Below, piece by piece: positions 1,835 through 57,877 of a stretch of 64,000 nucleotides of DNA. The notes under the pieces are model-generated. The model had not been told where the DNA came from, did not search any database, and saw nothing but the letters and a program-made list of their open reading frames with translations. The stretch spans positions 68,789,058 to 68,853,057 of the forward strand of contig NC_088295.1 of the NCBI RefSeq assembly GCF_032854445.1. The letters are read 5' to 3'. A program made the position numbers and the translations under genes. Every line of letters starts with the position of its first letter. Within the stretch, counting starts at the first letter, position 1. The DNA is from Liolophura sinensis (Eukaryota > Mollusca > Polyplacophora > Chitonida > Chitonidae).

Positions 1835-3948
1835 CTCTAACGTCTATTGTGAACACGGAATCCGCATATTTCCCATGGTTATCCGTGGCTCTGATCCCAA
1901 ACTTGTACAAGGCGTCATAGTCTGGAGGTTTGCCGTGGATTCGCCCAGTGTTACTATCAATGACCACATTAGCGGGCAAAGCTCCCGATATCCTTTCGTA
2001 CTTGACTGGCCCCCTCTCAGGATCCTGTAACCATGACGACCGTTATGCATCGCACAATAATACAGAATGTGTTGAGTAACGGTATCGGTAAATATTTGAG
2101 AATTAGCGTCTTATCCGTCAAAGTATGCCGTAGACCGTAGCTGAAATAAGGAAGCCGCTTGAGGACCTTTTGCTATGTCGCAAATGTATATTAAAGGAGA
2201 TCAGCTAGGCAGGTGAGAAAGTTTCTCTATCGGCGGCTATATTTTTTTTTTTGGAAAAAATGTGTCAAAATCAACGATTTCCACATGGATGGATATTTCC
2301 ATCATGATGAAGTTAACTTTTAGGTTTGGTCGTGAAAAGAAAATGTTCTGAAGATACTTAGGTATTTAATGACATAAACTTTGTGCTGGCAAAATTCTGA
2401 GAAACTATCGTCAAGTTAATACAATGTTCAGTAAACGTCCCAGGACATTTTTACCTCTGCCAGGACTCTCACAGATATAGGTTGGCCTGACGAAAATGTG
2501 CCCAGTCTTCCATCGCCGAGACTTTGGGACCAAATAGGTGGTAAGCTCAAGATTATCTGAAGATCAACAATGAAACGACATTTTTTCATTTGAGACCAGT
2601 TGAATTTATAGTCAAAAAATCTATGAGGATAGGGAGGGGTAGTTTTGAAATGACTGTTATTGAGTTTGTAGAATTAATTCAGATTTTCTTGGTATTGAAG
2701 TGCTTATGTCGAGGTAGTTATATCAAATCGCAAAACTTCGCAAAAGCGTCCCTATATGGGCATTTGTCAGATGGCAAAATGGATTCCCCTTAAATGTAGA
2801 CAGTAAGCACAATCTGGGATAGATTAAAACTTCTGTTCCAAAAAATTGACGAGTGTAGTTTTGCTGTACTTCTTTACTGAATTTTAACTAGTTGTTAGTT
2901 GTCAAGTTAGAGATTATTGTTGTCTACTGAGCTTCTTGCCCAGCCTCACATAGTGGTTGTCTCCCCTGTGTTCAAAACATACCGTTGCAAGTTCAGAGAA
3001 CACTGTATCTCCAATGTACACTTTCCCTCCAGCCCCGGGTGTGATAAGTATATTGCCTGATTCTCCGGCCTGAAATGGAAGATCGCAAATTCTTTTGTAC
3101 AGCAAACATTTGTTTTAAGTCACTAGAGCTCCTTAGCTAATATATACCGTACAAGTTTTGACATGAAAGATTGTAGTATTGTATTCAGAGCCGTATGTTT
3201 ATGCCGAATCAGACTTTTTGAGAGGGTTTGCACTGAATTTCCTGAGCTCAGTAGATCAATATATCGGCCCAAATATGCCTTCTATAAGAAGAAGATGTTA
3301 TACATTTATGGTGCCTCTCTGGAAACATACTAGATCTACACAGTATTCACAGTTATCGCATACTAAAGGAACAATTCCATGTGTTCAGATCTCAAAATGA
3401 ACTTTATGAGGAAAGATTTCATATAACCACAAGCGTTAAGGGTTGATTAGCACCATTACCTGCACGGTTACATTTCCATTCTCCTCTGAGAATACGTCAA
3501 CGTTGGGGTACTGCACCTCGAAGAAACTGACAATGACAATATTACTGAAAGATGGTGGAATAAATAGTAGATATGTCCACAAAATTATATACACATAACT
3601 AAAGGTTTATGTTCTTTTAATTTTTTAAAGGCACAAGACTCTCGTCCTATGTGAATAAAAAGTGAAGAAAAACCAACCATGAAGTACATGTTATTTTAAC
3701 CCCAAAACACGTTACATCAAATATTTTCGAAATCGTTTCAAAAGCATTTAGCATGGGACATATGCAGGTGGTTTTCACCTTGAGGAGAGGCGAAGGTGTA
3801 AATGTAGGTATGTTGATAAATTATGGCGTACACAATGAAAATTGAAGACACAAGTTAGGGTTATATAGTCAGACGTATTTACAGGACGCTACCTGGCTTC
3901 GACCGTTGCTGACGATGTCAGGATCACCAGGCCTAAAACCCTCCACAT
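1835..3948 (-). CDS. Gene A: secreted cadherin-like (He_PIG) domain protein, paralogue of B and C, 5' part only
   Basis: Five minus-strand exons are recognised: 3893-3948, 3460-3526, 2983-3069, 2455-2556 and 1835-2024. Their lengths and phases match the first five exons of B. Exon 1 encodes MWRVLGLVILTSSATVEA, a signal peptide. Exon 2 (FFEVQYPNV, then GNVTV) carries an N-glycosylation sequon shared with B and C. Exon 3 is Gly-rich (GNILITPG). Exons 4 and 5 form one dystroglycan-type cadherin-like/He_PIG domain: SLPPIW, LGTF, DPERG, TGRIHG, FGIRATDNHGKYAD. The usual LPPG turn is LPANV here. Exon 5 can end at either of two donors 4 bp apart; only the inner one (GTGGGT) keeps the family's phase. 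The EGF and discoidin exons are not in the window. It is probably a real gene, but silencing or truncation cannot be excluded. The function is unknown; a secreted binding protein is inferred. Confidence 0.75.
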
Positions 3949-5573
3949 TATGTGCCAAGGAAACGGTATACCGGGATTACTTTTCAACACTGAGATTTCT
4001 GGTAATTTTCTAAACCCCAAAACCAGAGCGCCCAAAGTTACGTTATGGAAGCCTCTTCACGTGACCGGGCAAACCTCACCAAGACCTCGGCGGACTCCAG
4101 ATTCCTGAAGTGTTCAAGTACATGTTTATTCAGACCCAGGAATTCAGAGGAAACTCGGTACTGAAGGTATGTCCTCGGGTACACACCTATTTATCAACAC
4201 TGTTAGATACATATATATCTGGTCAGTTGGAGTATCTGAATAAAGTTGTCGTGATTAATGTCTGTCTAGTATACAGAAACACCCTTACCAAAGTAACAAC
4301 GCAGTTATCATGACCGGGTTTCTAATAGGTGTATACCAACTATAAAAGGTATAAAGCCATATAACATGTTTCATTTATTAGAATGGAAGGACATCAGCCC
4401 ACCAGAGCGCCCAAATATCAATGCTAATTGTTTTAATTAATAAATTTCACTTATACGACGTCGGCCAGCATTATGGTGGGAGGAAACCGGGCAGAACCCG
4501 GGGGAAACCAATGACCATACGCAGGTTGCTGCAGACCTTCCCACGTACGACCGAAAAAGGAAGCCAAGATGAGCTGCCTTCAGCTAAAGTCTGATCATGT
4601 CTGTTTATGCTTTAAGTGAAGAGAAATGGTCAAATTTCATTTACACAAAACCCTTCCATGTTCCTCAGGGTCTACTGTTTTAAACATTGTAAACCGTAGT
4701 TGACTTGCACTCGCGGCCATGTTAGATCTCTATCAAATTAATTCCTTGGTCTTTCATATAAAAAGGCGCATTTTGATGTGTACACTGGTCCATGGAATTA
4801 CTTTGTCAGAGATTGGTCGCAAGATCAAGTCATCTATGGCCAGGCCCAGGGCCAACTTGCACGACGCCCTTTTAACGTTAAGAGCATGTAACTAACATGA
4901 CCTAAAGGTCAGAACTATAGGCATTACGTCGCCATAGTAGTTACGTGTGTTAACGTTAAGAGAGCTCCGTGTCTTGATACTTAGATAAAAAGTTTCTAAA
5001 GATGTATGTATAAAGCCAGGCCCAAAATTTCGAGGGCTCAGTCAATAGAGAGTACATTTTCTCTGTGGTTTGTGAATCTAGAATCTAGTACTTGTTTATC
5101 AGTTACTGCTCTGCATACGACTGCGATCCCGGCTCCTGCTGCTTGTTGTATCATAGTTGTATCTAATTCCGCTTAACCCGGGGCTAGAAGGTCTATAAAC
5201 ATTCACGTTTGTTTATTGTCTTCGAGTGGTACACGAAGGCCGGATTTGATGCTTAGATGTGGGTTAAGATTTAAATAAATCCTCCTACAATACGAAAACA
5301 AAGGACCACTTTTCAATGCGTAAAATGATCCTAAAGATAGCGAGAACTTCAATGGAATAAATAAACAAGAATTCATAAAATTAGTATAGAACGGAAATTA
5401 TTTGTGTGCTAAATAATACTGATTATTTACTGATTTCTTCAATGACAACGCCTTGGATGGGTCCTGTCCCAGTTCACGAAAATGAACCAGCCAGCAAACG
5501 TGTATAGGAGTAAGGACCTTAGCACAGCCAAAGAATAATACTAAGTTTGACACCAGTTGTCAGGCATTGATAA
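3949..5573. other. Spacer between gene A and the 3' end of gene B
   Basis: This spacer holds the promoter side of gene A and the downstream side of gene B, both on the minus strand. No TATA box was seen close upstream of the gene A start. A minus-oriented SINE lies inside (listed separately). The rest is AT-rich sequence in which I see no exon or RNA gene. Confidence 0.4.
4433..4572 (-). repeat. SINE fragment (common tRNA-derived family), minus orientation
   Basis: It contains the family core read backwards on the plus strand: the tail side (TTTCACTTATACGACG), then GGCCAGCATTATGGTGGGAGG, the CCGGGCAG...CCCGGGGGAAACC segment, CGCAGGTTGCTG and ACCTTCCCACGTACG. The tRNA-like head is missing. 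It lies between genes A and B. Confidence 0.8.
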
Positions 5574-5579
5574 TTTATT
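5574..5579 (-). terminator. Candidate polyadenylation signal of gene B
   Basis: On the minus strand this reads AATAAA, about 185 bases past the gene B stop codon. It is the first canonical hexamer I found downstream, but such hexamers are common in AT-rich DNA. Confidence 0.35.
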
Positions 5580-5761
5580 CTCGATCAAATTTGACAAAAC
5601 CAAAAACAACGATTGTTGTACGCAAAGTCTAAAATATGTTGACTGTTGAGCGGTGTTCATTATTGTTTTGTTTAAATGTTAGGTTACACGTTGAATATTG
5701 TTAGTAAGAATATGAGAACAGAAGATGTGGCTGGGGCTCATCGTCAGGACGTCTGTGCCAT

Positions 5762-8700
5762 TCACACCTTGCAACCATAGACTTCCACTCGCATTCCTGG
5801 ATTGCTCTTCCATGTTAGAGGTAGAAATCTCACAAAGCGTGCCACAACAGGGAAATCCAGCCGATGCTTTATGATGGAATCGTAGTGCTGACTTCCGCCA
5901 AAAACCTACAACACATGACTAAATGTTTAACATTTAATGTCAACAAACCGAATAACAAATGAAATGTACAGTACAAATTACGATAAATCCCTGATTGCCA
6001 CGTTTCAGTTGTCACATGCATTTTGCACACTCACCTTTTTGTAACCGGACGTCTCGGTGATATAGCTGAAGATGTTACCGTCCTCACTTGTCTGAAGCTC
6101 GTATGAGGCGATGTAGTAGGATTGTGACTGGTAACCTTGCGCAGCAACAGCGTACACTTCTGTTCGTTCTCCAAGATCAACCTATACAGGCACATTAAGG
6201 AGAGGTACCAATCAGTACTACAATGGCGACTGAGATCACCCTTATGAATAAGATTAAAGCAAAAGAAGATTTTATACAAACTACACCTTAACTGAAAGAG
6301 CTATACAAACTATACCGGTATAGAATTCTATTTTTTTTTAAGTTTTCGTAAAAAAGAAAAACGGTTTTAAGCATCATGATTTTCGAGGAACATTGAAAGT
6401 CAAGCCATGTTTTAGGCTTGTCCAAAGAAAGCCTCCTTTCCTGTTTTAAATATTAGTTGTGACGTCACTGTGCTTAAAGTTTTACTCCTACCATGTGATT
6501 ACGTGTATTTCCAGTCTCAATTAAGTATATTGTGATAATCGTACATTTTAAGGTCTGTGAAAGCCAATCCAAAAAAAGGAAGAGTTTGGGTTGTACGGGA
6601 GGAGCGGTCAAGTCTACATGCTTGGCTGTATGCCACAGTGTGGCTGGAATGCCATTTTTTTTTACCTAATTTTGCCATGGTGCGGGGTTTGTGTAAATTG
6701 GTTCTACTTATGCTTTTACATGAACAGTTAGAGTAAAACGCTGAATGAGGTAAATTGATAACAGGCCGTATTTCACTGGTTACCTGTCACCATTTGCCAG
6801 CTATCACACTGTCGTCGTTTCTCTGGTTTCACTCTCTATGCTGTACGTTTTTTTAATTATACTGGCTAGCTACCGGATAAAGCTAAACACGATGACGTAT
6901 GTAATCTGTTAAAGAAGACTTAGATGTTTAACTATTAAAAACGCAAATAAAAAGTACTACTGACAGCAAATCGGAATATTTTATTTAGCCTTACACATAG
7001 CCCTTTGACCTATACATATGCAAGCATGAACGATTCTCACCATACAAGTATAAATGGCCGAAATCAACCTAGGGAGACAGGGAGAGGGGGTGTTGATTTG
7101 TAAAGGCGTTTTCCACCCCAACGGGGCGATGCCTCGAGATCAGCTGAGGTAAGGACACAAGCATTAATTGCCGAGATCAACCTAGGTAAAGATATAAGCA
7201 TTAATGACCGAGACCAACCTAGGTAAGGATATAAGCATTAATGGCCGAGATCAATCTAGGTAAGGATACAAGCATTGATGACCGAATCTACTTCGATAAG
7301 GATACAAACATTAATGATCATGATCGATCTCACAAAAATGCAAGAATTAATGGTCGAGACCTGCCTAGGTAAGGATACATGCATTAGAAGTCGAGATGAT
7401 ACAACCATAAATGGACAATAACAATCTGGCTAAGGATACAAGCATTGATGACTCAGATTAATCTGCTGATACAATCATGATTGGTCAAGATCATCCTGGC
7501 GACGAACACAAGCATAAACGGCCGAGATCATATAGGTGAGTATAAAGGCATTCTCTGACCCCGATCAAACTGCGAATACAGATTTTTTTTTTTTTTTTTT
7601 GGATTGGTGTTTTACGCCGTACTCAAGAATATTTCACTTATACGACGGCGGCCAGCATTATGGTGGGTGGAAACTGGGCACAGCCCAGGGGAAACCCACG
7701 ACCATCCGCAGGTTGCTGGTAGACCTTCCCACTTGCGAATACAGACATTAATAGCCGGGATCAACCAAGCTAAATATAAAAGCAATAATGATCGCGATCA
7801 ACCTACAACCAATCTTGGTAGAGATCAATCCAGCTATAAGGATACAAGCATTTAAGACAGAAATCAACCCAGCTGTGGATACAACCATTAATAACCGAGA
7901 TCATCATAATTAAGTGTACAGACATTAATCGCAAATACCGTCCTACAAATCCAGACGTAAAATTTGTTCATGTAAGCCACATGCTAGGAATAACTTTTAA
8001 AGACAAAATCTGAAAAGAACATCTGACAGTATAACACAGATGCACTTTTATATGTTCCATACAAGGATTCTGTGTAGAGCAAACCAGTTTTGATCTTAAA
8101 GTGAGCATAAAGTCAGCCACTGAAACTGAATTAATTAATAAAGTAGTATTTCAGAAATGTTCTTAAAATATTTTTAAAAATTCCACACCGCTTATCAACA
8201 AAATAAATAGCAAACAATCGTCAGTACCAAGCCACTCATTTGATGACACCACTTTGCCATATCATAGCTATCTAGAGTGACGTCACAAAACCTAGGAGCT
8301 TTCCCGTACCATCAGTATTAACAATGTAACAATGAGAAAATACAAAGAAAAACGTCCGGTAACCAACCAAAGGGTACCAACTCTATTCCGTGTTCAAAGG
8401 GCCGATGTTTCTTTTGGTTTGGCACTCGGTCAGGGCGATGTTCGTGGACACAAGCGTCATGTTTTAGCGATCCTGCTCGTGTAAGCACTAGGTCTAGCCG
8501 GCTGTGCCGACATCAAGGAATTTACCGAATATAGCAGGACCTTCTGATTTATAACAGACTCTTTCATTTGGATTTTGGGAAGATATTTTCGAAATAAATC
8601 TGACTTTGCGAAGGAAAAATAATGCAAAGTCACAATATTTTTCTTCAAGCAATGACTCTGCCGGGGCGGTTTTCTTGTTAGCTCTTACTGACAAATTACT

Positions 8701-11700
8701 GTAGTCTCCTGCCCAACAAGTACGCATTCTGACACGGGTAAGCGTTCTCAATTTCCTGCTCATAAATGTGTCGTCCAAAATGCATCAGTTTAACACTTAA
8801 ATTAACAGTAAAATGAAATTGATTTCATCGATATTTGTCCACCCACTAAAAGAAACCACACTGATAATGGAGAGCTAGTAGGTTTTTTGACGTGACTCTT
8901 TCAGAACACGTGATTGACCAAGCTCATAAAGGCTTCTCCAACAGGGTCATCCCCATTACTGAATTTCATCTTCTCGGCTTTCAAAACTTTATAGAATTTC
9001 ATACATAGTTTTCTGTGACAACTCTGTCTTATATCTCTTTTCCTATGTATATATAGTAGCAGACTTCATGTTCACTTTAAAGCTTCCTTGGCACTGACCT
9101 GTAGCCAGGACCCCTTCCCGGTGCCGACCCAGCCCCCTGAGGCGTTAAGACGGCCGTTCGACGCGGCGTAGGTACCTTCGGACAGGTAAGCAGACATCTG
9201 AGCGTCGGGTATAAGCTTGTCTTTTGCATTCACACCAAGAGGATGGTTAACACAATCTAGAGAATGATAACATGTGGAAAATATTAATTTTGATATTGTT
9301 GATCATAAAACTCCCTTAAACAGATGTATACGTGAACTGTTTCGTAACGCTAGGGGATCTCTATCTAGATGTTTCACCCACAGTGATCTATAAAAAACCT
9401 CATATATTTCACTAATTTGTACGCCATATATTCAAGAATATTTTTACAGCTACAACTGTTGTCATGGAGGTTTACAAGGGTTAAAACTGGGAATACCTCA
9501 GTGAAAAACGAATTTAAATGCCACATGTAAGAAATTTATGGTTATTTTAATCAGTCTTAAATAAACGGAGTCTACAAGAGTTAAAACTGGAAATATCTCA
9601 GGGGAATATAAATGTAAGAAACGGAACTGAAGATATTTACCCACAGTAACTATTGAGAAGTTTACAAGCTCGCAATAATTGCAAAAGGAAAAAAAGTTGT
9701 ATACATAATGGTATACTGACCAACCATTCGGGATTATAGGTTAATCCATTTGCACTGTTCTGGCAAAGCTGCAGTAAGTTATAAACGAAAATTTAGTTCA
9801 TAAACCAACATGTACAAACTTGATTTTGCAATATTTGATTTAGGTTAACCTCTCCACAATGGAATTCTCATGTTCTCAAAGACTGATGGAAATTTGTCGG
9901 CTTTGATCGTACTCCACTGAACATGCTGAAGAAATGTCCTCACCAACTGTAACTTACCGAATTCACAACGTTCTCCTCCATAGCCATCTATACAGCTACA
10001 GGCGTAACCATTAGACAGGTCGGTACAACTTCCGCCATGCTGGCAGGGTTTTTTGTTGCACTGATTGTATTCTGGAAAGAGCGAATAGTACTCAGATTTT
10101 ACAGATTTTAATTTATGGTATTGTTTTTTTTACTTTATTGAACAATTACAATCTGCTAAGCAATAAGAACAATAAAAGTAGTAATATTAGTTCCTTCGTT
10201 ACCAATTATCAAGAAAGTACAGGCCTATTTCTCTATTAGATATAGCTGGATGGGCATTCCGCATACATGGTGTCCTCAGTAATCCTTAATCATTATACAT
10301 TGATATAATAGGGCTTTATCTGTTGGTTCAGGGTTGGTTCACGCATGTCTGTTTCTGTACGGCTAGATTTAAACATAACTTAGATCTGGTACAGTGATAA
10401 ATAATTGAGCTGGTTTACATTTACTTTTGCAACTGAATTTGTACAAGAATATATTTAGAAGTCTTTTTTGTTTGGTGGTAGTGAATTGGGAAACATAACC
10501 CGTCTAAAATAAGTTAATCCAATTAAGGGATGTGCTCTTTTACTGTGTCTGTATAGTTATGGCCACATAGCAAACAGGTAGTTCAAACAGCAAACAGGTA
10601 GTTCAAATGCACTGTAGTACAACAATGGTGAATTTTTTATAAAGCATGGAATCGACTTAGGCAAGTAAACATGGGAACGAATTCGGAATACTTACCCCGG
10701 ACTTCGAGTCTGAATATGCCATCAGCAAATTTGCCATGATGGTCGGTGGCTCGGATACCAAATATATAGGTGGCGTCTTCATCTGGAGCTGTCCCATAAA
10801 TATGGCCGGTTTTTGGGTCGAGCAAGATGCCAGGCGGGAGATCCCCGGACACTACCGAGTAGATGAGATCGCCACCCTCAGGGTCCTGGTTACGAAAAAT
10901 TGAACAGATTAAACAAACATCTCGTCAACAGTTAACATAAAGAACACAGAAAATCTACGTGATTAAGTCAAAGCAGTATAATACTGCGGTAGGGTAAGCA
11001 AATAAGTTTCCATCGGTTTTAGAGGTGATGTCATTTCTGGCCATAAAATCCATATATACAATAGGTTTTAATGAATGATATTAAGTCCTGGACCTTTTCG
11101 GAAAGGTTGAAATGACATGAATACAATGGTTACAGAACAGTTATACTTCACAGAAAAGAGCATTAATAAATAACTGATTAACACAAACCAGACAAGCTCC
11201 TGTGCACGTTTAGTACAGTGTAAAACATCAAATAAATAAATAAATAAGCTTTTGAACTAAACATGTGCCCCTCAAAACCGGCGTATCCTGTCTTAGGCAA
11301 GTACTGACCTCGGCATGCACGTAGACTGAGATGAGCAATCCGGCCAGAAAGGTACCAAGTAGATCGTGTTCTTCTTTAGTGATCCACACAGGAGGTAGAC
11401 TTTTTACTCGCTGGGTTATAAAAAGTTCTAATTAATTCTTGACATTGATAAGCTTACTGTGGAGATATATCCGGTTCTCCTATATTTTTAGGGAATCTAT
11501 AGCAGCCTAAAGCACCAAATACAACACAGTACTGCATATCTTCTTTGTCTTATATTCTACAATCAACTATATACGACTACTAATTATTCAATATACATAA
11601 ATTAATAGTAAAATAAAATTTAAAAAAAAAACAATTGATTAATCAAACAAGTCATCTCGTGAAAGAACTGGGTAATTTAGCAATCGTCATCGAGGAGAGA

Positions 11701-13421
11701 TACTTAAGGGAGATTTAAGATTCTTACTCAATTTTCAAAAATTTAATTACACCAAAAATAGACCACTGAACAAAGTAATCATTTCTAGTCAGTCCTTCGT
11801 TATCCAAAATCTGGTTTTAAGATGGTGGCTTACGTCAACCAGCTCCCGGAGATCCATATTCTGTATAAATACGGTGCCACTGTTGTTGTTTCCCGGAAGA
11901 AGAACTACGTTTCCGCCAACCCCAGCCTATGGAGAATAACGCGTGGTTATATAACTGTCGTAATAAAACCGTCAATGGAAAGCCATTAGACAGGAAGCAC
12001 TGGATTTGTGCGTTGATGGAATTTTGTTTTCAGAAGACGAAAACTGCCAAGAGAATATGTGTCAAAATTGCTCTATATGTTATGTTAATTTACACACAGC
12101 CATTTATGAGAATACTATTATGCTGAATGACAACGGTCACAATAGGTATTTATACACAAAAAACACGTGTGTGTATGAACATAAACTTGTGCTCTCTCTA
12201 ACAAAAGTCTTGATTCGTATTTGAATATATCTTGTGTTGAAATAACACAAGGTCTTGTTTGAGGATTTAATACAAACATGTGTTCTTCACAGTTATTTAA
12301 CCCATGTTTGTGTTGTTGTAATACATTTCTGTGTTGAATGAAACAACACAAGTGTTTGTGTGAATATACCAAAATATAGTCGGGGCCTCCGTGGCCGTCA
12401 TCGTATAAGTGTACTATTCCTCAGTACGGCGTTAAACACCAAACAAATAAATAAACAAAAATACAGAATGAAAGTCTATTATATACGAATGTTAATGCTA
12501 CTTGTGAGTTCAGCTCCGGGACCGGGTGACATGTAATTCTGTTTAATCTTACCTCAAGGGTAAGGTTCCCTTTGGGCTCCGCTTGGATGAATACATTCGG
12601 GAATTCCACATCAAAGAAGCTGAGAGGAGATGATGAAAAACATTATATAGAATCAAAAATCTACCTAAGTCCATACAAGGGTGTAATGAGTGATTAACAC
12701 TATTCTTGGTGTTCTTGGTGATTTTATCGTAATACTTGTGTATTTCATCTGTGTAATTTCGAAACAAAAATATATTCAAACCGAAACGTTCTCAACGAAC
12801 TGTAAAATTTGAACTTCTGCGATATTGCAAACTGTAGAAAACAATACCATGTTGCAGGATTGTAGGCCTGTATTAAAAACTTTTAAGATGATATATAGGC
12901 CTATAGACTGACCATATTTAATTTGCTCAGTGCCCATTGTACATTTAAAACATTCATAAGGGTAGACATTACATTTTAAGCTTTAAATGCACTTTAGTCG
13001 GTACGTTTGAGACTATCTGGGCGACAAAATAGTGCTGCACATTAAAAATTGTCAAAACACTGCATGCGTGCAGATTGTTTACGCCACACTACCGAGTGTT
13101 TATCTGAGGTTTAACGCACTGGTGTCTGTACACTGTACATATTTAACTTTCAAGACACTGGTGAATTTAAGTTAAGTTCGAAACACTGTATAGACTGTAT
13201 TAATTTTCGAGATGCTGTATATAGACTGAACAAAGTAACTTTCGATACTGTGCAGAGACAATGCATATAGACCGTATATATTAATTTTTCGAGACCTTAT
13301 ACACTGAACGTTTGTAACAAAGACATTGCAGACTGTTGAACGTCACTGACCTTCCTTGTATCACCTGAACCACCACCATCCCCAGGGTCAACCCCAGGGC
13401 TAGTTTGCCAGCTACAGCCAT
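5762..13421 (-). CDS. Gene B: secreted protein with He_PIG/cadherin-like, EGF and F5/8-type C (discoidin) domains
   Basis: Nine minus-strand exons, each with GT-AG junctions: 13351-13421, 12553-12619, 11834-11926, 11309-11410, 10696-10885, 9958-10071, 9099-9256, 6035-6181 and 5762-5905. They total 1086 bases (361 aa) with all phases agreeing. Exon 1 encodes MAVAGKLALGLTLGMVVVQV, a signal peptide. Exon 2 has the sequon GNLT. Exons 4-5 form one cadherin-like/He_PIG domain (SLPPVW, DPEGG, LPPG, TGHIYG, RATDHHGKFAD). Exon 6 is a six-cysteine EGF module (C-N-K-K-P-C-Q-H-G-G-S-C). Exons 7-9 make a full F5/8 C domain opened by DCVN and closed by RFVRF and RVEVYGC. There is no transmembrane segment or GPI signal, so secretion is expected. 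Discoidin domains often bind glycans or lipids; the ligand here is unknown. The discoidin intron lies 10 bases away from its place in gene C. Confidence 0.9.
7040..7960. repeat. 37-bp minisatellite in gene B intron 7, interrupted by a SINE
   Basis: Diverged units of the type GCATTAATGGCCGAGATCAA + CCTAGGTAAGGATACAA repeat with a spacing of 37 bp, clearest at 7150-7260. The array continues past the SINE at 7579-7740 as more degenerate copies, so the SINE inserted into an existing array. Confidence 0.75.
7579..7740 (-). repeat. SINE (common family), core and tail, minus orientation
   Basis: A poly-T run is followed by GATTGGTGTTTTACGCCGTA, the ACTTATACGACGGCGGCCAG core, a GGGGAAACCCACGACCATCC segment and GCAGGTTGCTGG. 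It ends near CTTCCCAC without the tRNA-like head. It sits inside the 37-bp minisatellite of gene B intron 7. Confidence 0.85.
9440..9660. repeat. Degenerate two-copy repeat in gene B intron 6
   Basis: Two related stretches share GGAGGTTTACAAGGGTTAAA / GGAGTCTACAAGAGTTAAA, then AACTGGGAATACCTCAG / AACTGGAAATATCTCAG, about 110 bp apart. A third weak match follows. Confidence 0.45.
10558..10610. repeat. Short direct duplication in gene B intron 5
   Basis: The phrase AGCAAACAGGTAGTTCAAA occurs twice back to back. It is a small tandem duplication lying about 90 bp downstream, in gene direction, of the exon 5 donor. Confidence 0.6.
12145..12371. mobile_element. Candidate MITE with about 27-bp inverted ends, gene B intron 2
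   Basis: The left end GGTATTTATACACAAAAAAC and the right end, ACACAAGTGTTTGTGTG followed by AATATACC, are imperfect inverted copies. The interior is rich in short CACAA/TTGTG inverted pairs. The size (about 227 bp), the ends and the lack of coding capacity fit a miniature inverted-repeat element. No clear target-site duplication could be fixed. Confidence 0.45.
12382..12459 (+). repeat. Internally deleted SINE (head joined to tail)
   Basis: The first bases of the family head (GGGGCCTCCGTGGC) are joined directly to the tail (CGTCATCGTATAAGTG, then CAGTACGGCGTTAAACACC and an A/T-rich end). The B-box half and the whole core are absent. The junction falls at a short GGCCGTC-like sequence that could have mediated the deletion. 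Confidence 0.7.
13020..13320. repeat. Degenerate minisatellite in gene B intron 1
   Basis: Loosely repeated units of about 50 bp alternate 'ACTGTATAGACTGTAT' and 'TTAATTTTCGAGA' phrases. The copies are too diverged for a firm unit length. The array ends about 30 bp from the exon 1 donor. Confidence 0.5.
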
Positions 13422-13919
13422 GATTCTGATTACTATATCCTTGTGTGGCAGCGTTCAGCTCAGGACATTGCCAGAAACAACGGCCAGTAGCTCCACATTC
13501 CGCAGGATAGCTTATAACATACATTGTTGTGTTACCCAGGTCGGTGTTGACTTTACTTTGTACAGAATGCTACAAGTGCTTCATCCAGTCTAACGACTTT
13601 TAACAGTATTCCGGTCACGATGTTCTTCCCATGATATTTCTAAACTCAAAACTTTATTACAAATGCAATTTTTTAGTAAGCTCATGCCAGCCAGCTGTTA
13701 CTGATGTTATGCTAAACACAAAAATATTCTCTTATATGTTAGTTGTAAATACATGATACTATCTCCTATAACGTGTAATGTATACAAAGTCTGAAATGTG
13801 GTAACAGAAGAATCCGTCACTTCGAGATCCATACACGTATTCTGCTACCTAGGTTCATGAGCCATTAGGGCACACACCTAATACATGCTGACTTCTGGTG
13901 CTGAGCTGACAGAGTTATC
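13422..13919. promoter_or_regulatory. Shared intergenic promoter region of divergent genes B and C
   Basis: Only 498 bp separate the start codons of B (minus) and C (plus). A TATAAG motif on the minus strand at 13511-13516 lies 90 bp from the B start, a good distance for a TATA box with a short leader. On the plus side the best candidate is CCTATAACG near 13763, about 150 bp before the C start. The head-to-head layout of paralogues suggests an inverted duplication that kept common control DNA; co-expression is inferred. Confidence 0.55.
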
Positions 13920-16900
13920 ATGGGATTTCTGGTAGTTTTACTAACCATTTTACCAACTATAGTCATCTGCCAGCATGAAGGGTAAGATTCCACCAGACGA
14001 ACAGGCTCTCTTCGTTTAATTTTATATTACGTATTATTTAGTGCTAAATGCAATGGGGAAGAAGAAAATTTCACTATAACGGAAGGGTATTTCTATCAAT
14101 TTCTCCTTTTGCCGGGCGTATCCGAAGGACCAAGTGAATTCGAAAAAGTGCGTATTGCGCAAGCAAATTAGATAATATGGGCGTTACAAATGGGTACTGG
14201 TACGTAGGAAGGCCTGTCAGCAACCTGCAATTTCCTCCTGGCTCTACGTGGTTTCCTCCCATCACAACGTCATATAAGTCAAATATTCTTGAATAAGCTC
14301 TGTTAAGCCCAGCGATATTCCCAGACCATATTTATAGGTACTCAAAAGGATACATGTATCTTCACTTATCTGTAATGAAAAATCCAGTAATTAACACACA
14401 CTGGTTGATAATTTTGTTTCAGGGTACTGGACATCCAGTTTCCCAGCATACGGGTCAGAGCCCAGCCTCATGGAAATATCTCTTTACAGGTCAGTACTTA
14501 CTGTAATGTAGATTTTCGGTGTGATGACATTTTTTCTCGAAAAGTTCGCCTACTGAATCTATGTCAGTAGTCTCTTTATATAACCCTTATTATTTTCTGC
14601 ATGCGACCTTAGTCAGGTACAGGAGGTAACGTGCGTCTCACTCCAGGCAAGAATGGGAGCGTTTTCTTTGAAGATGTAGACTTGCTGGAGATCATTGAAG
14701 TAAGTAAATATTAAAATTGATGATTTGTTACTGATCATTCGGGAAAGTACTGTTAGAATAAAGATTGCTTTCATTTGTATGGCGTTTAGTGGGTTAAACA
14801 TTAAATTACCCTCATCATTAGCCGTAGTTGTTGTAGTTACCCTTAGCTTTGACATTTGGGTATTTTACAAGAAATAAAATTTCATTTGCCACTGTCGGTG
14901 GATAAATTTTAAATTCTCTTGTAATTCGGAATGTGTTTTCAGTATATCAGAGATAATGTACCATTAAAGCCAAAGATCTCGCCTATTCAAACTAAGTGAA
15001 CATTCGGAAAATATGAGCATCTGAAGATTTAAATGGAACAGACAATAATATATAAAGTGTAATTTTATGGCAAATATTATGGATCTTTATACCCGATCCT
15101 CTACTGTATCTACTGTATTTAATTTTGTGTTTACAAGAAGAAAGATTAACCTTTAACTAGCAATTGTCAGGAGATAGACACAGTGCGGGTCGCTGAAACA
15201 TAGATTGCCTTTTGACCCTAACCTGGTTTCGTAAACATACGTTTGTGTAAACACAGTGTTACTTTTTAATAGTTATAGAGTTTACAAAGTTTTGCCTAAC
15301 CGTGTAACTCGTGATACTTTTCTGTTGGATGTTACATGGAAATATCTATAATACCGAAAGCGTTGATGATTTCAGATTGTAAAGAGCTTGCCTCCAATGT
15401 GGCCGGAGCACGATTCGTCTGATAACTTGGGCGTCTTTAGAAGTGGAACGAATTTTAAGTATCAGATGATGGCACAGGTAAAAGCAGGTGGAATGGGGTG
15501 AGGTGGGGGATTATGATATAGCTATTAGAATGACATGTTTTTCTAGTAAAAGAAGGTAAACTTGTGTCTGTATTTATGTTTTCTGGAGGCTTGTAAGTGA
15601 TGTGACTGTTTAGGAACTATACATATTGTATACATGGATCGGGATTTACAGTGGTGGCAGTTGTCTGAACCATGCTTGTATTGGAACTTACAGTGGTCGC
15701 TGTTGTCTGAACCATGTATGTATTGAAATTTACAATAACTGTGGTTTTCTGAGCAATGTATGTATTGGAATTTTAAATGCAGGTGATTATCTGAACCACG
15801 TGCATGTATTGGAATTTACAATGATGGTGGTTATTTGAACCATGCATGAATTGAAAATTAGTGGTGGTGGTTTTCTGAACCACGTACGTGTTGTAATTTA
15901 CAATAGTAGCGGTTTTCTCAACCATGTATGTACTGGAATTAAAATGCAGGTGATTGTTTGAACCATGCATGTACTGGAATTTACAGTGGTGGCGGTTTTC
16001 TGAACCATGTAGGTATTGTGATTTAAAATTAAGGCGGTTTTTCTGAACTATACATGTACTGGAATTTACAATGATGACGGTTGTCTGAACCATTCATGTA
16101 TTGGAATTTACAATGATGACGGTTGTCTGAACCATTCATGTATTGGAATTTACAATGATGACGGTTGTCTGAACCATTCATGTATTGGAATTTACAATGA
16201 TGGTGACTGTCTGAATCTTGCATGTATTTGGATTTACAATGATGGCGGTTTTCTAAACCATGTATGTATTGAAATTTACAGTGGTGGTGGTTGTTTAAAC
16301 AATGTATGTAATGGTATTTACAGTGGTACCTGTTGTTTAAACCATGCGTGTATTAGAATTTACAATGATGACGGTTGTCTGAACCATACATGTATTGGAA
16401 TTTACAGTAGTGGTGGTAGCACACAACAAAATGGGCGCCTTCGACGGCTTGTTGACTTGAAGGCTTTACAAACAATGAGCTGTGGAATGTGTAAATGTCC
16501 TGCCCATGGCCAGGACTAAACATTCACCTCGCTTCTTAGCCATTGAGAAAAACACTTTCAAGCTAGAATGATACGAGTTTCTTCTTGTGCATTGCAATAC
16601 GTTCGTGTCTCACAAACGGAAGGATTACTTGAAATTTAAACTGCACGGGTTTACATGCGGGAAACATTTCCCATTGAAAGTGTCTTTGCCTTGACGCATA
16701 TTGTATTCTCTGTGGCCACTATCCATATCGTTCACAGGAGGCATTCGTGTTCTGACGAATTAATACAGCTCTTCCTGAGCGCAGAAGGTGGGTGTCGCGT
16801 CCAGGCAGAAGATTAGGGAGATCATTCATGCGATCATTATGTTTGCATGCAGAAGTGATGGTAGTACATTGTCTAATAGAGTAATACTTCTTGTGCCTGA

Positions 16901-19900
16901 TCGATAACTTTTGCCTGAGGGATAGTTATTGTTCAGCATGCAATAACAGTACAAGTTGTCCACTTATCTGCAATTGAATTGTCAACATTCAAGGTTGTGG
17001 GATAATGAGGAGTAAAATAGCCGTCGCTATTTGCGTAAGTGGATCAGTGGGTACAGTGCAATGTACTCTTTGTGTAGCTGGAATTTATGACGGAGCAATG
17101 GAGAGAGAAAGCGCTGTTTTCGTAGTTTCCACACAGCTACCCAATCCTCACGGGATAGAGTAGCAATCTACCACAGGCACTTTGGACTAAAACGACAGCA
17201 GTTTTTACTTTACATTCGAGACCATAAGTAGTGCCTCTAGTTCCTGGATGTTGTAGGACACGCTCTATCAACTGCGAACATATTGCTCTTTGAATTACGC
17301 TCAGGATATATGTTGTTTGGGCACAAACATAGGTCATTTTCAAGTGTATATACGCTGGACTTGACAATTAAAGTGGCATTGGAAGTAAACCATTAATGAC
17401 TTAGAAGATAATCCATATATGGAATTATCTTTAACTCATACTCATGTACTTAATTACACAACGATATGCACCAACTCTAACATGCATTGTTAAATAATTA
17501 TTCTCCAAATGGTCATTTGTAACTGGCGATGAGTTAAGTGTGCCACAATAAGTACTTTGATAGGCGACTAAGGAAAGTTGTGGTTTAAGAAATAGTTTGA
17601 GTTAAGGACTATTTCCCCAGCCGCAAGGATAGTCAGGGCCCCAATCAGCTCGTGATAGTATTGCAGCTCAGACTATAGAGATATTCTGCAGGGTCACTCT
17701 TTTGACAGGTGTCCTGTTTGTCTGTTTATAGTGGTAGCTATGGCAACAAGATTTTTATGTAGCAAAAATTGCAAAATGTGAACATTTTTGCTTCAAAATT
17801 ATTATGAAATAACATCATACATCACTTGCTGGCTCCGGTAAAGGTTTGTCTTACCATACGCTATGTAAACACAGTCTTCTGCTACCCGCACAGGATCCGG
17901 AGGGTGGTAACATCACGTACCAGCTAGTGGCAGGTAGCCTACCCCCGGGAGTCCAGTTACACCCAGCAGGGGAGGTAAGCGGTGTTCTACCCGAGGCGGA
18001 CTCTGTGTACCGGTTCACCGTCAGGGCTATTGATGTCCACGGGAAGTTCTCAGACTTGACCTTCAGGCTTGAGATTGAAGGTATACAGCCGTACATGATA
18101 CATCCTCAGAAACAGAGCAATTGAGCTGAATAAATCACGACTTGCCTGCCTGTAGGCACCACTGATACTCACTCACCAACACAGTAACTGACCTGAATAA
18201 ATCAAGACTTGCTTAACCACTGATACTCACTCTGAAACACAGTCATTGACCTGAATAAATCACGACAGGCCTACCTGTAGGCACCACCGATACACACTCT
18301 GAAACACAGTCATTGACATGAATAAATCACGACTGGCCTGCCTGTAGGCACCACTGATACTCACTCCGAAACACAGTCATTGACATGAATAAATCACGAC
18401 TGGCCTGCCTGTAGGCACCACTGATACTCACTCCGAAACACAGTCATTGTCCTAAATAAATCACGACTGGCCTGCCTGAAGGTGCCTTATCTACATCTAT
18501 TTTCTTCAAATCCAAAAAAATTGGGTCCACAAGGGACTGACAAGCAGGTACCCATATTATATCGCACATAATGGGCCTTCATACTAAATAACAGATACAA
18601 CATTCTTGATTCTAAACTATATAGGTTCAGAGCCCTTGAAAATCAAACGTTTGGACCTCATGGTTGTGTATGCTGGTATTCATGTTTTTGTAAAATTGAA
18701 GGAAAAACATAAAAGATATTCTCGTTCCGAACTGAGCCGGCTCCTGCCTATATCTGTTCTATGTTTTAAACTCGGTTGTCTTTTTTTCCCCAGCTAATAC
18801 CCCCTGTGCTCCTGCCCCGTGCAAAAATGATGGTACATGTGTCCCCAAGACGGACGGAGATCATGACTGCCATTGTATTCTACCTTTTGGCGGAAAGAAC
18901 TGCGAGCTAGGTAAGTAGATAGTACTAATATACAGATAACTGTGAATGCATTTTATTTATTCCATGTATGATAAGAACTTTATGAAGATGCAGATGTTCA
19001 GTCAGTGCGGTTGTTAATGAAACAATGATTTGTGTTTTCGTATAGAATCGATATGTTGACGAAAGCCCAGCGAGATCTAAAACTGCTGGTGTAGAATCGT
19101 TTTCTCTGGGCTGTTTTCATGTTTAAATAGTAGCCAATTTTCGTTTTGTGTGATGATTTCATTAACTAAAATACATATATGCAAACGTAAATACGTAAAT
19201 GTCAGGCAAACCATAAGATGGCAGCATATTTTTAAATGAATACTTGAGATTTAACGTCGTACTTAACAATTTTTCCGTCATATGACAACGAGGAGTCATT
19301 AGATGTGTGTATATAGACTGTGTGGTCTTGTGGCAAGGCGAGTCCATGCCACCAAAGTGATGCCGCCACTGAAGTATCATGCTGAAGACATTAGACATGA
19401 AACCCCATCCAGTCCCATTATACTGACACCGGGCCAACCAGTCATTTTTCCTTGTTCTAACCCCTCAGTGCTAAGTACCAAGCGAGGCTTAGTACAACAA
19501 GTACCATTTTTAAAGTTTTTAGTATGACCCAACCCGGGTTTGATCCCTGGTCTCCCGGCTTTGAAGCGGACGGTCTAACCATTAAGCCAGCCGAAGAGGT
19601 CTGCATATTTTTGACGACTGTAAGTGAAAAAAATTTCTTTCTCTCACACTACAGATTGTGGGAAGACGGCATTTGGGGTAGCCGCTAACGTCCGGAAGAT
19701 TCCTGATGCCTTCATGTCCGCTCATAACACGCATGGGACCTATTTGGCAAGTCAAGGCCGTCTGCTGGATGCCTCGGGCTGGATTGGAGCAGATAACAGC
19801 TCCTGGCTTCAGATAGACCTGGGTAAGTGCTGTGCTCAAGGGAATTCTGGAATTCGGTTTGTTCAGTTACGTCATACTTCGCCTCTTGTATGACGTCACG

Positions 19901-22415
19901 AAAGGACAGCCCGAAAACGTCAGCTGTTAGACTAAAAATAAAAAGGTACACATACCAAAATTGGGCATCAAAGTACTGCAATGTGTACACATACAATTAA
20001 TGACATCTTTCTTTCAATCACGTGAACACATAAACAAAACCTAAACCTATTTCTCTAACAGAGAATGGGCCGTGTTCTAGTGGCTAGAGGCGCTTTCCTT
20101 TTGGTGGTTAAGGTGGGTTCGAACCCGGCCTTGGACAGGGAATTTGTAGATTTCCCAACTCTCTGGTTGTAGGGCCCTGGTGACAATAAACGTTTAACGG
20201 CGCTGGTGTGTGGCCGGTTGGACACCCGTGTGCACTGAAGATTATTTGTCCTACACCAAATGTTAAATATGTGCTATATTTTTGGCACAGCGTAACAACA
20301 AAAAAACTGCATATTCAAAACAATATCACGATATATAGATCGGTATATAAAAAATTGGCAGAAATGTTATTTACTGATCTATATATATTGGTGTAGTTTT
20401 TTGTTGTTGGCAGTAGCATTTATAAAACGTTCGTATCGGAATTTCTATACTCACAGGTAAACCGTCGTCAATCCACGCCGTGGCTCAGCAGAGCAAAAGT
20501 GCCAGCGCTTACACATCGGTGTTCAATATGGAGTACAGCACGGACGGCAACACCTTCCAGGCCTACACTAACGCTGTGGGACAACCATATGTAAGTCACA
20601 ATATACACCCGGATAGCAACAAACAAGAATCCACTTATCTTAGTAAAACACTGTCAGTTTTTCACTTGAATTTAACAGAATTTAACAGCACGTAATGGTT
20701 TGCAAAGATTTTGTCCTTTGGAACTCCGGACCACTTTGTCCACAGAGATCCCACAATCAAGCTGAACAGTTAACGAAGTTCTCAAATTTTGATTACAGTC
20801 TAAATATTAAGATAAATTTGAGTAGTTTTCAGAGGACAGACAAAGTCTGGTATCGTTTTTTTTTCAGGTATTTTCCCCAATATGCTTCCATAAAATCTAA
20901 CCTTAATTTTAGACCACTGACGACCAATAAATTGTTCCGGCCCCGATGGCTCGGTAAATTTTCCTCTTCGGAGGCGGGAGATCCAGGGTCAATCCTGGGT
21001 CGGGTCACACCTAAGGGTTTTAAAAAGAGGAAGTTGTAGCTTCCTCGCTTGGCCTTCAGCATTAAGGGGAAGTGCAACAACTGGTTGACCCGTATCAGTA
21101 TAATGGATCGGATGGGGCCGCGCTCTTGCCTTCTGTAACTCGTTTCAGCCAGGCATCACTAGATAAAAGAGCGGTGGAAATCCGAATTGCAACAAGGGGG
21201 CAAATAACATGCACTCCTTGGTCGTCATCTGACTGAGAGATTGTTATGTACGACGTTAAATCCCAAAAACTCAGTCTAATGAATTGCGAACTAAACAATA
21301 AAACCCTACCTGAGATAAATGGACAAGACGTCGCATTGAACGTGAGACCAGTTTGCAATCAAACTGTCGTTGCTGCTCTCTTAGTGTAGTTATTTTTTAA
21401 ATATTATATGTGTTGAAGGGATCTGACAGTTATGATTCAAACATGACTTATCTGGAGTTTTCGCCGAGAAATGAAGTTATGTCAGTTTGGTGGGGGTTAA
21501 GGCTGGATCACAAAAGCGAATAGGGATTTATTGTACACTAATGTTTCCATATTGATTAACAGACAAGAAGAATCGATTTTCTGTAGTTAAATCAAGAGAT
21601 TCGTAAAAGATATTGTTGTAATGGTACACTGAGATTATTTTAGTATTCTTAAAATATTTCCTTTGAATCATTGTACTATAAAACAGATGTCATTGTCATT
21701 ACGCCTACGGCTTGTATTCTCTATTCCTTTATTAAATTTTTTATCTATATTCCTGCCAATACAGAAATAAATGGGAGTAATTTATGCCACTTATTTTGAT
21801 TTCCGGAAAACACGAACATTCCTTGATGTGGTTTCATCGTTTGTTATCGTTAAATGACTAGAAGCAGTAGCACATTTTATCAGTATTATTGCTTTTTTTT
21901 GTCGACTGCGTTTGTTCAAGGTTCATACAAAGCCTAATATTGTCCAGTCACTGCTTCTAAATATAAACGAGAGCATTGATTCCATGCAGGTATATGATAT
22001 TAATACGCAAATACCACTTATGAGGTGGCGAATTGCTCTTACTGTTCTCTAAGCCATTGTTTTCATTGTTATAATCAAACAATTTCAGACAGAAAACGGA
22101 GTGCAGATATTGAAACAAATACTTTTTGTTTTATAAATGGTTAATGAAACGATTGCTCCAGGGACAATTGACAATTTCTTACTGCTTCGTTGCATGCAGT
22201 TTCATTGGCTATCTGTAAAGCATAATTCACAGGTCGTTACAGGTTTGTTATGTTTCCATTTTCTACAGCCTTTGGCGGGAACAGCTACTGCGGCCGTTCA
22301 GACCACTGCTCTTCCTCAGCCCGTTACAGCCCGTTTTGTACGCTTCCGCCCTGTCACATTCACAGGATATCCGTACATGAGAGTAGAAGTCTACGGGTGC
22401 CGGATATTCGCCTAA
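13920..22415 (+). CDS. Gene C: secreted protein with He_PIG/cadherin-like, EGF and F5/8-type C (discoidin) domains
   Basis: Nine plus-strand exons: 13920-13981, 14423-14489, 14613-14699, 15376-15477, 17894-18080, 18794-18910, 19655-19822, 20457-20590 and 22269-22415. They total 1071 bases (356 aa), with GT-AG junctions and consistent phases. Exon 1 encodes MGFLVVLLTILPTIVICQ, a signal peptide. Exon 2 has the sequon GNIS. Exon 3 is GTGGNVRLTPG. Exons 4-5 form one cadherin-like/He_PIG domain (SLPPMW, DPEGG, LPPG, RAIDVHGKFSD). Exon 6 is an EGF module with six cysteines (C-A-P-A-P-C-K-N-D-G-T-C). Exons 7-9 form a full F5/8 C domain, from DCGK through SSWLQIDLG and EYSTDG to RFVRF and RVEVYGC. 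It has no membrane anchor. Introns carry two minisatellites and three SINEs. The plus-strand divergent partner is gene B, its clear paralogue. Confidence 0.9.
14186..14298 (+). repeat. Diverged SINE fragment in gene C intron 1
   Basis: It shows GTACGTAGGAAGGCCTGTCA, GCAACCTGC, TTTCCTCC twice and CGTCATATAAGTCAAATATT + CTTGAATA, in the order of the common family's core and tail. It is considerably mutated. Confidence 0.6.
15600..16420. repeat. 42-bp minisatellite in gene C intron 4
   Basis: About 19 units of the type TGGAATTTACAATGATGACG + GTTGTCTGAACCATTCATGTAT. Four central units around 16060-16200 are almost identical, while outer units diverge, as expected for recent central expansion. 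Open frames across it on both strands are by-products of the repeat (42 is divisible by 3). Confidence 0.9.
16430..17893. other. Rest of gene C intron 4; nothing recognised
   Basis: AT-rich intron sequence between the 42-bp minisatellite and exon 5. Short open frames on both strands show neither splice logic nor a recognisable domain. Confidence 0.4.
18120..18480. repeat. 67-bp minisatellite just after gene C exon 5
   Basis: About five units run GAATAAATCACGACTGGCCT, GCCTGTAGGCACCACTGATA, CTCACTC(C/T)GAAACACAGTCA. Two identical unit starts at 18316 and 18383 give the 67-bp period. The array begins about 40 bp inside intron 5. Confidence 0.85.
19241..19602 (-). repeat. tRNA-derived SINE, second family, minus orientation, next to gene C exon 7
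   Basis: Read on the minus strand, it starts GACCTCTTCGGCTGGCTTAA. TGGCTTAATGG fits a pol III A box and GGATCAAACCC fits a B box, in tRNA-like spacing. It ends with a tail resembling TAAGTACGACGTTAAATCTC. The head lies only about 50 bp before the exon 7 acceptor, so the acceptor's pyrimidine tract sits in the small gap left. Confidence 0.75.
20067..20235 (+). repeat. tRNA-derived SINE, third family, gene C intron 7
   Basis: GGGCCGTGTTCTAGTGGCTA + GAGGCGC gives an A-box-like start, and GGGTTCGAACCCGG is an excellent B box about 40 bp later. Downstream are GGACAGGGAATTTG and a segment ending near GGACACCCGTGTGC. It looks like a short pol III SINE or tRNA pseudogene-derived repeat. Confidence 0.6.
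20939..21280 (+). repeat. tRNA-derived SINE, fourth family, gene C intron 8
   Basis: It begins GGCCCCGATGGCTCGG, then GGCGGGAGATCCAGGGTCAA, GGGTCGGGTCACACCTAAGG, CTGGTTGACCCGTATCAGTA and GATAAAAGAGCGGTGGAAAT, ending in TACGACGTTAAATCCCAAAA. The copy at 35371-35697 has the same order in the opposite direction, which fixes the family's extent at about 330 bp. Confidence 0.8.
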
Positions 22416-24083: not shown

Positions 24084-24185
24084 TGGAATTTATTTATTTA
24101 TTTATTTGATTGGTGGTTTACGCCGTCCTCAAGAATCTCACTTATACGACGGTGGCCACATTATGGTGGGAGGAAACTGGGTAGT
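24084..24185 (-). repeat. SINE 3' fragment (common family), minus orientation
   Basis: A (TTTA)n tract, then GATTGGTGGTTTACGCCGTC, CTCACTTATACGACGGTGGC and TTATGGTGGGAGGAAACTGG. The copy is cut off in mid-core. Confidence 0.8.
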
Positions 24186-34306: not shown

Positions 34307-34475
34307 TTAATTTATTTATTTATTTATTTGATTGGTGTTTTACGCAAGAATATTTCACTTATACGACGGTGGTCAGCATTATGGTGTGAGGAAACCGAGC
34401 AGAGCCTGTGGAAAACCATGACTATCCTCAGGCTGCTGGTAGACCTTTCCACGTGGGATCAGAGAGGAAGCTAGC
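34252..34475 (-). repeat. SINE (common family) with a long (TTTA)n tract, minus orientation
   Basis: About 80 bp of pure (TTTA)n is followed by GATTGGTGTTTTACGCAAGA, TTTCACTTATACGACGGTGG, GGAAACCGAGCAGAGCC and GGCTGCTGGTAGACC, ending in GATCAGAGAGGAAGC. The tract is the element's own A-rich tail, expanded by slippage. Its reading frames (runs of Leu-Phe-Ile-Tyr) are not genes. Confidence 0.85.
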
Positions 34476-35370: not shown

Positions 35371-35697
35371 TGGGGCTTAACAATTTAGCAGTCATATGAT
35401 GACGAAGGAGTCCCTAGAGTGTATGCAATGTGCCTCCTTGTGGCAGGACGGATTTCCACCGCTCTTTTATCCAGTGCTGCTTCAATGAGACGCCTTACCG
35501 AAGGCAAGTAAGCAGCCCCGCCCGAACCATTATACCGATACGGGTCAACCAGTCGTTGCACTATCCCTTTCATGCTGAACGCCAACGAGGTAGTTACAAA
35601 TTCCACTTTTAAGGTCTTAGGTGTGACTCGACCCAGGGTTGACCCTGAATCTATCGCTCCCGAAGCAGACGCTCTACCAACTGTGCTATCGGGGCCG
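35371..35697 (-). repeat. tRNA-derived SINE, fourth family, near full length, minus orientation
   Basis: On the minus strand it begins GGCCCCGATAGCACAGTTGG, an A-box match (TAGCACAGTTGG), continues TAGAGCGTCTGCTTCGGGAG, then the CAGGGTCAACCCTGGGTCGA B-box region, CTGGTTGACCCGTATCGGTA and GATAAAAGAGCGGTGGAAAT, and ends ATCATATGACTGC. Confidence 0.85.
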
Positions 35698-35944
35698 GTC
35701 AAAGAAACGAAAAATAGGACAAAAAATTTTTGGCCAGAAAATGACATGAGAATATGGTCTGCTTAGTCGAAAGCTACTTTAATCTAGATGGTCTGAACAA
35801 TCGGTTCTTACTATACACCCAGTGTCTTTGTCAGACGAACTGATTTCCCATTGTACAAAATATCTGATCTTTAGTCCTTGTGCGTGGGTGTTGATCATCG
35901 ATCGCTAGGTGATTGGGGGTGCATAATCAAGTGTGCTCGATCTG

Positions 35945-38638: not shown

Positions 38639-38801
38639 GCCGCCCGTACGTGTGAAGGTCTACCAGCAACCTGCGGATGATCGTGGGTTTCCACCGGGCT
38701 CTGCCATCATAATGCTGGCCGCCGTCGTATAAGTGAAATATTCTTGAGTAGGGCGTAAAACACTAATCAAGTAAATAAATAAATAAATAAATTCAATTCG
38801 A
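38639..38801 (+). repeat. SINE (common family), core and tail
   Basis: GTACGTGTGAAGGTCTACCA, GCAACCTGCGGATGATCGTG, CTCTGCCATCATAATGCTGG, CCGCCGTCGTATAAGTGAAA and AGTAGGGCGTAAAACACTAA, ending in (AAAT)n. The head is missing. Confidence 0.85.
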
Positions 38802-54714: not shown

Positions 54715-54820
54715 ATTTTTAATATGTGCCGTAATCATATCATTAAAATTTAGGGATTTGTGTATGTATATGTAAGTATATATGTATGCTTGAGGTTTAA
54801 CGTCGTACTTGTCATTTGTG

Positions 54821-54984
54821 TTTATTCATTTATTTATTTGATTGGTGTTTTACGCCGTACTCAAGAATATTTCACTTATACGACGGCGGCCAGCATTATG
54901 GTGGGTGGAAACCGAGCAGGACCCGGGGGAAACCCATGACCATCCGCAGGTTGCTGAAGGACCTTCCCACGTACGGCCTGAGAG
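54821..54984 (-). repeat. SINE (common family), core and tail, minus orientation, little diverged
   Basis: (TTTA)n, GATTGGTGTTTTACGCCGTA, CTCAAGAATATTTCACTTAT, ACGACGGCGGCCAGCATTAT, GGACCCGGGGGAAACCC, CCATCCGCAGGTTGCTG and CCTTCCCACGTACGGCC. It ends before the head. About 15 bp upstream is a short piece of another SINE's tail (CTTGAGGTTTAACGTCGTAC). Confidence 0.9.

Positions 54985-57797: not shown

Positions 57798-57877
<80 letters not shown>
57798..57877. repeat. (AT)n microsatellite, about 80 bp
   Basis: An uninterrupted alternating AT run, self-complementary and able to form a cruciform. Confidence 0.95.

Follow-up and report, generated by a model that had tools for sequence, protein, structure and literature searches.

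The window, by which we mean the whole 64,000-nucleotide stretch analysed here (contig C1:68789058-68853057), contains three neighbouring, intron-containing paralogues, called A, B and C below. They share one plan of 353–361 amino acids: a signal peptide, a sequon-bearing segment of ~50 amino acids, a He_PIG domain, an EGF domain and an F5/8C (discoidin) domain. Gene C lies on the + strand (13920 to 22415; nine exons, 356 amino acids) and gene B on the - strand (13421 to 5762; nine exons, 361 amino acids), the two standing head-to-head with their start codons 498 bases apart. Gene A follows B in tandem, 1813 bases separating the B stop from the A start, and runs on the - strand from 3948 past the window start, with a full protein of 353 amino acids. 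Exon models, built from homology among the three genes together with splice signals, locate 23 exons within the window (nine for C, nine for B and five for A), and every frame is open:

1835..2024, - strand: A exon 5, He_PIG core; ends in phase 1 at a GTGGGT donor (Pfam He_PIG E 1.6e-8, full A protein)
2455..2556, - strand: A exon 4, linker and first part of He_PIG (SLPPIW..LGTF)
2983..3069, - strand: A exon 3, N-terminal segment, second half
3460..3526, - strand: A exon 2, N-terminal segment, first half, sequon NVT
3893..3948, - strand: A exon 1, signal peptide
5762..5905, - strand: B exon 9, F5/8C third part and stop codon (Pfam E 4e-19, whole domain)
6035..6181, - strand: B exon 8, F5/8C second part
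9099..9256, - strand: B exon 7, F5/8C first part
9958..10071, - strand: B exon 6, EGF (Pfam EGF E 4.9e-6)
10696..10885, - strand: B exon 5, He_PIG core (Pfam E 4.4e-10; predicted fold, mean pLDDT 89.1)
11309..11410, - strand: B exon 4, linker and first part of He_PIG
11834..11926, - strand: B exon 3, N-terminal segment, second half
12553..12619, - strand: B exon 2, N-terminal segment, first half, sequon NLT
13351..13421, - strand: B exon 1, signal peptide
13422..13919, no strand: B/C intergenic region, shared 5' region (GC 0.40, CpG observed/expected 0.57)
13920..13981, + strand: C exon 1, signal peptide
14423..14489, + strand: C exon 2, N-terminal segment, first half, sequon NIS
14613..14699, + strand: C exon 3, N-terminal segment, second half
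15376..15477, + strand: C exon 4, linker and first part of He_PIG
17894..18080, + strand: C exon 5, He_PIG core (Pfam E 7.5e-10, domain alone)
18794..18910, + strand: C exon 6, EGF, six cysteines (Pfam 18.6 bits, cut-off 21.5)
19655..19822, + strand: C exon 7, F5/8C first part; ends in phase 1 (A and B: phase 0)
20457..20590, + strand: C exon 8, F5/8C second part
22269..22415, + strand: C exon 9, F5/8C third part and stop codon (Pfam E 2.2e-16, whole domain)

GT-AG borders all 20 complete introns within the window; because this rule was used in choosing the boundaries, the splice sites serve as a consistency check and carry no weight as independent proof. Three 10-kb stretches before the window were also examined, and the remaining exons of A were found at ~1.0–3.0 kb past the window start (C1 68786020-68788035):

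C1:68787922-68788035, same strand as A exons 1-5: A exon 6, EGF
C1 68787241-68787398, 68786423-68786563 and 68786020-68786166, same strand as A exons 1-5: A exons 7, 8 and 9, F5/8C, in that order

All three domains of the full A protein score over the Pfam cut-offs (F5/8C 7.8e-15, He_PIG 1.6e-8, EGF 1.1e-5). Since exon 5 is not the last exon of A, the gene does not have to be a shorter variant, and a truncated gene is ruled out by the EGF and F5/8C exons past the window start. The exon 5 donor is the weak GTGGGT, and a perfect GTAAGT stands four bases on; the EGF exon stays in frame only if the weak donor is used. If exon 5 is left unspliced (window 2024-1827, - strand), its frame stops after two glycines to give 169 amino acids, and a 169-residue A isoform composed of signal peptide, N-terminal segment and He_PIG is therefore possible on the reading frame. 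Neither the rest of the window nor the 30 kb before it held a further gene copy that we recognised.

Over their full length the proteins are 39–47% identical (A-B 167/352, B-C 151/353, A-C 138/352), with A and B the closest pair and 104 of 364 alignment columns invariant. The eight junction phases agree throughout between A and B (2,0,0,0,1,1,0,0), and C (2,0,0,0,1,1,1,0) agrees with them at seven of eight. The seventh junction, inside F5/8C, falls in phase 0 after WLQ in A and B and in phase 1 after WLQIDLG in C, a displacement of ~10 nt further on; exon 7 measures 158, 158 and 168 bases and exon 8 measures 141, 147 and 134 in A, B and C. A preliminary description had proposed a cluster of three paralogues, two of them head-to-head, and the exon models bear this out. 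Its further claim of matching exon order, lengths and phases holds for order and for all but one of the C phases, while the lengths are similar, not equal. It had placed EGF and F5/8C in B and C only; both domains are there, and A carries them too, outside the window.

The 498-base region between B and C contains TATA[AT]A on neither strand. It is a possible two-way promoter, and B and C may share it as a promoter region.

The gene bodies show no DNA similarity to one another besides dispersed and tandem repeats in a self-comparison of the window, where the matches listed extend to query position 35929, beyond the last of the three genes. One dispersed SINE-like repeat of ~100–150 bp occurs in both orientations, ~78–97% identical between matched pieces, with copies inside B introns 2 and 7; the copies among those listed are

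4444-4549, 7582-7732, 12392-12475, 24088-24181, 34310-34454, 38640-38788, 48957-49125 and 54807-54975: dispersed SINE-like repeat

Two minisatellites lie in C introns, one of 42 bp in 18.4 copies (15633-16406, intron 4) and one of 67 bp in 5.9 copies (18096-18482, intron 5), and an inverted pair of ~250-bp repeats, 81% identical, joins 20966-21216 (C intron 8) with 35417-35665. Further along the window are a DDE_3 transposase fragment (50249-50641, +; Pfam E 3.3e-11), a perfect (TA)40 dinucleotide run (57798-57877), an exon-like frame (43771-44049, -) with a sub-threshold PSMD12/CSN4 N-terminal match at E 0.02, and two open frames (50984-51310 and 52429-52680, both -) whose LLLGNKYDV and GAPKSGKSS are reminiscent of small GTPases, with no Pfam match at E<=0.1. 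Searching the literature for one repeat string of letters taken from the window gave no match.

The similarity among the paralogues goes beyond chance. The best cross-paralogue tblastn matches reached E 3.7e-20 for the He_PIG exon (A against B) and 4.9e-12 for the discoidin exon (C against B), as compared to 100 first-order Markov windows searched with the same three queries (that of A being its first 167 residues), which gave 37 matches at E<=1, two at E<=0.02 and none at E<=1e-3. Taken singly, certain short exons (2, 3 and 4) gave cross-paralogue E values of 0.001–0.6 that overlap the random range, and we accepted exons 2–4 because order, strand and phase agree. Across all six frames of the window, two places fit the six-cysteine EGF pattern, namely the B and C exons, as compared to 0.02 per random window (50 windows). 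Differing codons at positions 1, 2 and 3 numbered 162, 107 and 239 of 336 for B and C; counted over at most the first 175 residues and excluding the first 20, they numbered 60, 45 and 109 of 152 for A and B, and 80, 54 and 100 of 148 for A and C. The third position is the most changed in all three pairs. NG86 returned a finite dS for none of the three, so we read the synonymous sites as saturated. On these sequence comparisons, A, B and C look like old, long-diverged protein-coding genes under selection.

Pfam matches support the domain plan, apart from a weak EGF in C. F5/8C (PF00754, cut-off 28.2 bits) scored 69.4 in B, 60.6 in C and 55.6 in A, and in each protein a terminal cysteine pair of this domain (C207/C350 in A, C214/C359 in B, C209/C352 in C) probably forms a disulphide. 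The six EGF cysteines are present in all three, with scores against PF00008 (cut-off 21.5 bits) of 26.0 in A, 27.2 in B and 18.6 in C; each EGF domain also carries C-x4-[ST]-C, which we take to be the Notch-type O-fucose pattern. He_PIG (PF05345, cut-off 24 bits) scored 40.3 in B and 35.3 in A as full proteins and 39.6 in C as an isolated domain, the full-length scan of C having missed a domain that was detected once excised. The domain starts in exon 4, at PPxW..LGTF, and runs on into exon 5. Each protein has a hydrophobic N-terminus and ends 2–4 residues past the last discoidin cysteine, and the three full proteins contain no second membrane-like stretch (the maximum 19-residue Kyte-Doolittle value after residue 30 is 1.305, in B). 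With signal peptides read from hydropathy and by eye, all three proteins look secreted. Pfam, the exon models and hydropathy support three points of the preliminary description: its assignment of domains, its view of the proteins as secreted and the common ancestry of the genes. The HMM search it had suggested for B and C recovers He_PIG and F5/8C in both (He_PIG of C only when excised) and EGF in B, the C EGF falling below the cut-off.

A structure model of B exon 5, with A and C as alignment, has five strands at a mean pLDDT of 89.1 and a pTM of 0.69; it omits the part of He_PIG encoded by exon 4, so that its structural matches are partial. Foldseek against the PDB gave 1093 matches at E<=10, none of which reached E<=0.001. 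The top matches were chains of staphylococcal SraP (E 3.7e-3, query-normalised TM 0.76), and cadherins, Rib and dystroglycan were among the best 50 of the 1093. The predicted cadherin-like fold is the likeness of A, B and C to dystroglycan and cadherins, from which they differ in having a single such domain and no membrane anchor; the dystroglycan matches stood at E 0.044 and 0.055, as compared to 3.7e-3 for the best overall.

In front of He_PIG, exons 2 and 3 encode 51–53 amino acids and exon 4 opens with a linker. This segment appears beta-rich by eye, and one aligned position holds a sequon in all three proteins (NVT in A, NLT in B, NIS in C). Pfam gave no match to the stretch encoded by exons 2–4 at E<=10 in any of the three, and NCBIfam none to the three proteins (A in part). 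We searched the genome itself (609,464,459 bases in 632 contigs) with one query, the N-terminal segment plus He_PIG of B, exon by exon with seven candidates scored, and obtained six matches, each to an exon of A, B or C. A single query of this kind may overlook distant copies, and exons 2–4 of A and C were indeed not among the six. We considered and rejected an origin of the segment from a phage tail fibre: the B segment had no phage tblastn match at E<=10, the Pfam and NCBIfam scans were empty as described, and the one PHROG match, given below, falls in He_PIG.

He_PIG, a widespread domain, does have phage and bacterial counterparts. Eight phage records matched the first half of B by tblastn, the best being Pelagibacter phage HTVC022P (E 7e-6, query residues 61-151), whose match begins at the second proline of PPVW, that is, with the first He_PIG residues; in two Agrobacterium phage records the match starts nine residues earlier, in the linker. 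The pattern PPxW..LGTF..DPEGG..SGxLPPG recurs in a protein of a large viral contig and partly in the Pelagibacter phage protein. Comparing the three A, B and C domains with four phage or viral domains, which were picked because they matched, hhalign gave a probability of 99.1 and E 4e-19. A plasmid search with the B domain found six records (best E 2e-5); the matched stretch is annotated as Ig-like or putative Ig in three, as DUF4214 in one and carries no feature in two. PHROG gave one weak match, to C (E 0.0024, residues 112-144, inside He_PIG). Searched with the He_PIG exon alone, viral contigs yielded one relative among 11 pattern matches, on a 517-kb contig. The 517-kb contig protein (L003 2920-5142) carries tandem He_PIG-like domains of the PPxW..LGTF..DPEG type, as picked by eye. 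The sequence pattern and the predicted fold are what A, B and C have in common with bacterial and phage He_PIG proteins such as SraP; each of the three has a single He_PIG in an intron-containing gene, whereas the L003 protein has several in tandem.

These alignments show that the animal and phage or viral domains belong to one domain family, and no transfer is implied. The tblastn match, the common pattern and the hhalign score would fit a rival reading in which He_PIG reached animals from a bacterial or phage source and was then fused to an animal EGF-discoidin protein. Such a history is very improbable: the domain is widespread, the four phage domains were chosen for matching, an intron splits He_PIG in all three genes, the N-terminal segment has no phage match, and wider-alignment scans of the viral and prokaryote contig collections confirmed no relative (two scans of each collection, which used the same two peptide patterns and therefore count as one).

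At the other end of the protein stands the discoidin domain, a type of domain that attaches to surface lipids, glycans or proteins. The nearest PDB structures to the B F5/8C domain are those of neuropilins and of factors V and VIII, with lactadherin lower down. The best match is a two-domain neuropilin-2 chain (E 2.1e-28; first domain 4.7e-15), and the likeness is to neuropilin b1. Neuropilin is a CUB-CUB-F5/8C-F5/8C-MAM protein with a membrane helix, whereas A, B and C have no CUB or MAM match, one F5/8C and no membrane-like stretch. In the alignment with neuropilin-2, B lacks four residues of the loop that precedes YY, which presumably removes part of the ligand pocket.

MFG-E8/lactadherin and EDIL3/Del-1 resemble A, B and C in plan, being secreted proteins with EGF followed by F5/8C, and a lactadherin discoidin chain matches B at E 1.7e-17. 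A, B and C might be opsonin-like adaptors of the same kind, in which exposed phosphatidylserine is the ligand of the discoidin domain and a phagocyte receptor that of the rest. RGD in the EGF region and paired tryptophans matter for function of the MFG-E8/Del-1 type, however, and A, B and C have neither; they also have one discoidin domain, not two, with He_PIG and the unnamed N-terminal segment in front. We consider this role quite unlikely.

A structural protein of shell, egg coat or mucus, with three copies expressed in one secretory epithelium and built into a matrix, would suit a secreted, small, sequon-bearing and clustered family, and passages of PMC4890752 name both EGF and F5/8C domains for proteins of the coral skeletal matrix. 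Many shell matrix proteins have a low-complexity or acidic repeat region, and none was seen by eye in A, B or C. We consider this reading unlikely.

The role that we judge most likely, with a little less than even confidence, is that of secreted bridging or matrix proteins whose discoidin end binds a surface. The ligand there could be the head group of a lipid, a glycan or a matrix component, He_PIG and EGF would act as a spacer, and the N-terminal segment, for which no homologue came up, may bind a second partner or form oligomers. The protein would then bridge cell or matrix and surface, as a humoral recognition protein or an extracellular matrix component. The earlier wording, 'recognition or matrix protein', is a reasonable reading of the domains, nothing more.

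The domain mix is unusual, yet built from known parts. We know of no named protein with this exact architecture. Literature searches found neither the combination of He_PIG, discoidin and EGF nor a putative Ig domain together with mollusc, and in a search for dystroglycan-type cadherin-like, EGF and discoidin domains the cadherin-like term was in none of the matches listed. The matched passages of PMC8878817, PMC2827412, PMC4890752 and PMC7430831 do not describe this architecture. All parts except the N-terminal segment are common, and the genes could be orthologues of a widespread animal protein annotated under another name, for example lactadherin-like; given that the three domains were not found together in the literature searched and that the architecture is not one we can name, we regard this as somewhat unlikely. 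A bolder proposal is a clade-restricted secreted family in which an unnamed, possibly oligomerising N-terminal module and a prokaryote-type He_PIG were joined to an animal EGF-discoidin unit; duplication then gave an inverted pair and one tandem copy, which were retained as a small repertoire for recognition. This we think decidedly unlikely.

If orthologues are widespread, A, B and C would be an ordinary gene family that simply lacks annotation. Should the proteins prove real, they would form a compact group of secreted discoidin proteins, open to experimental testing, with a constant plan and an N-terminal segment outside all Pfam models, and they could show how animals assemble new surface-binding proteins out of old domains.
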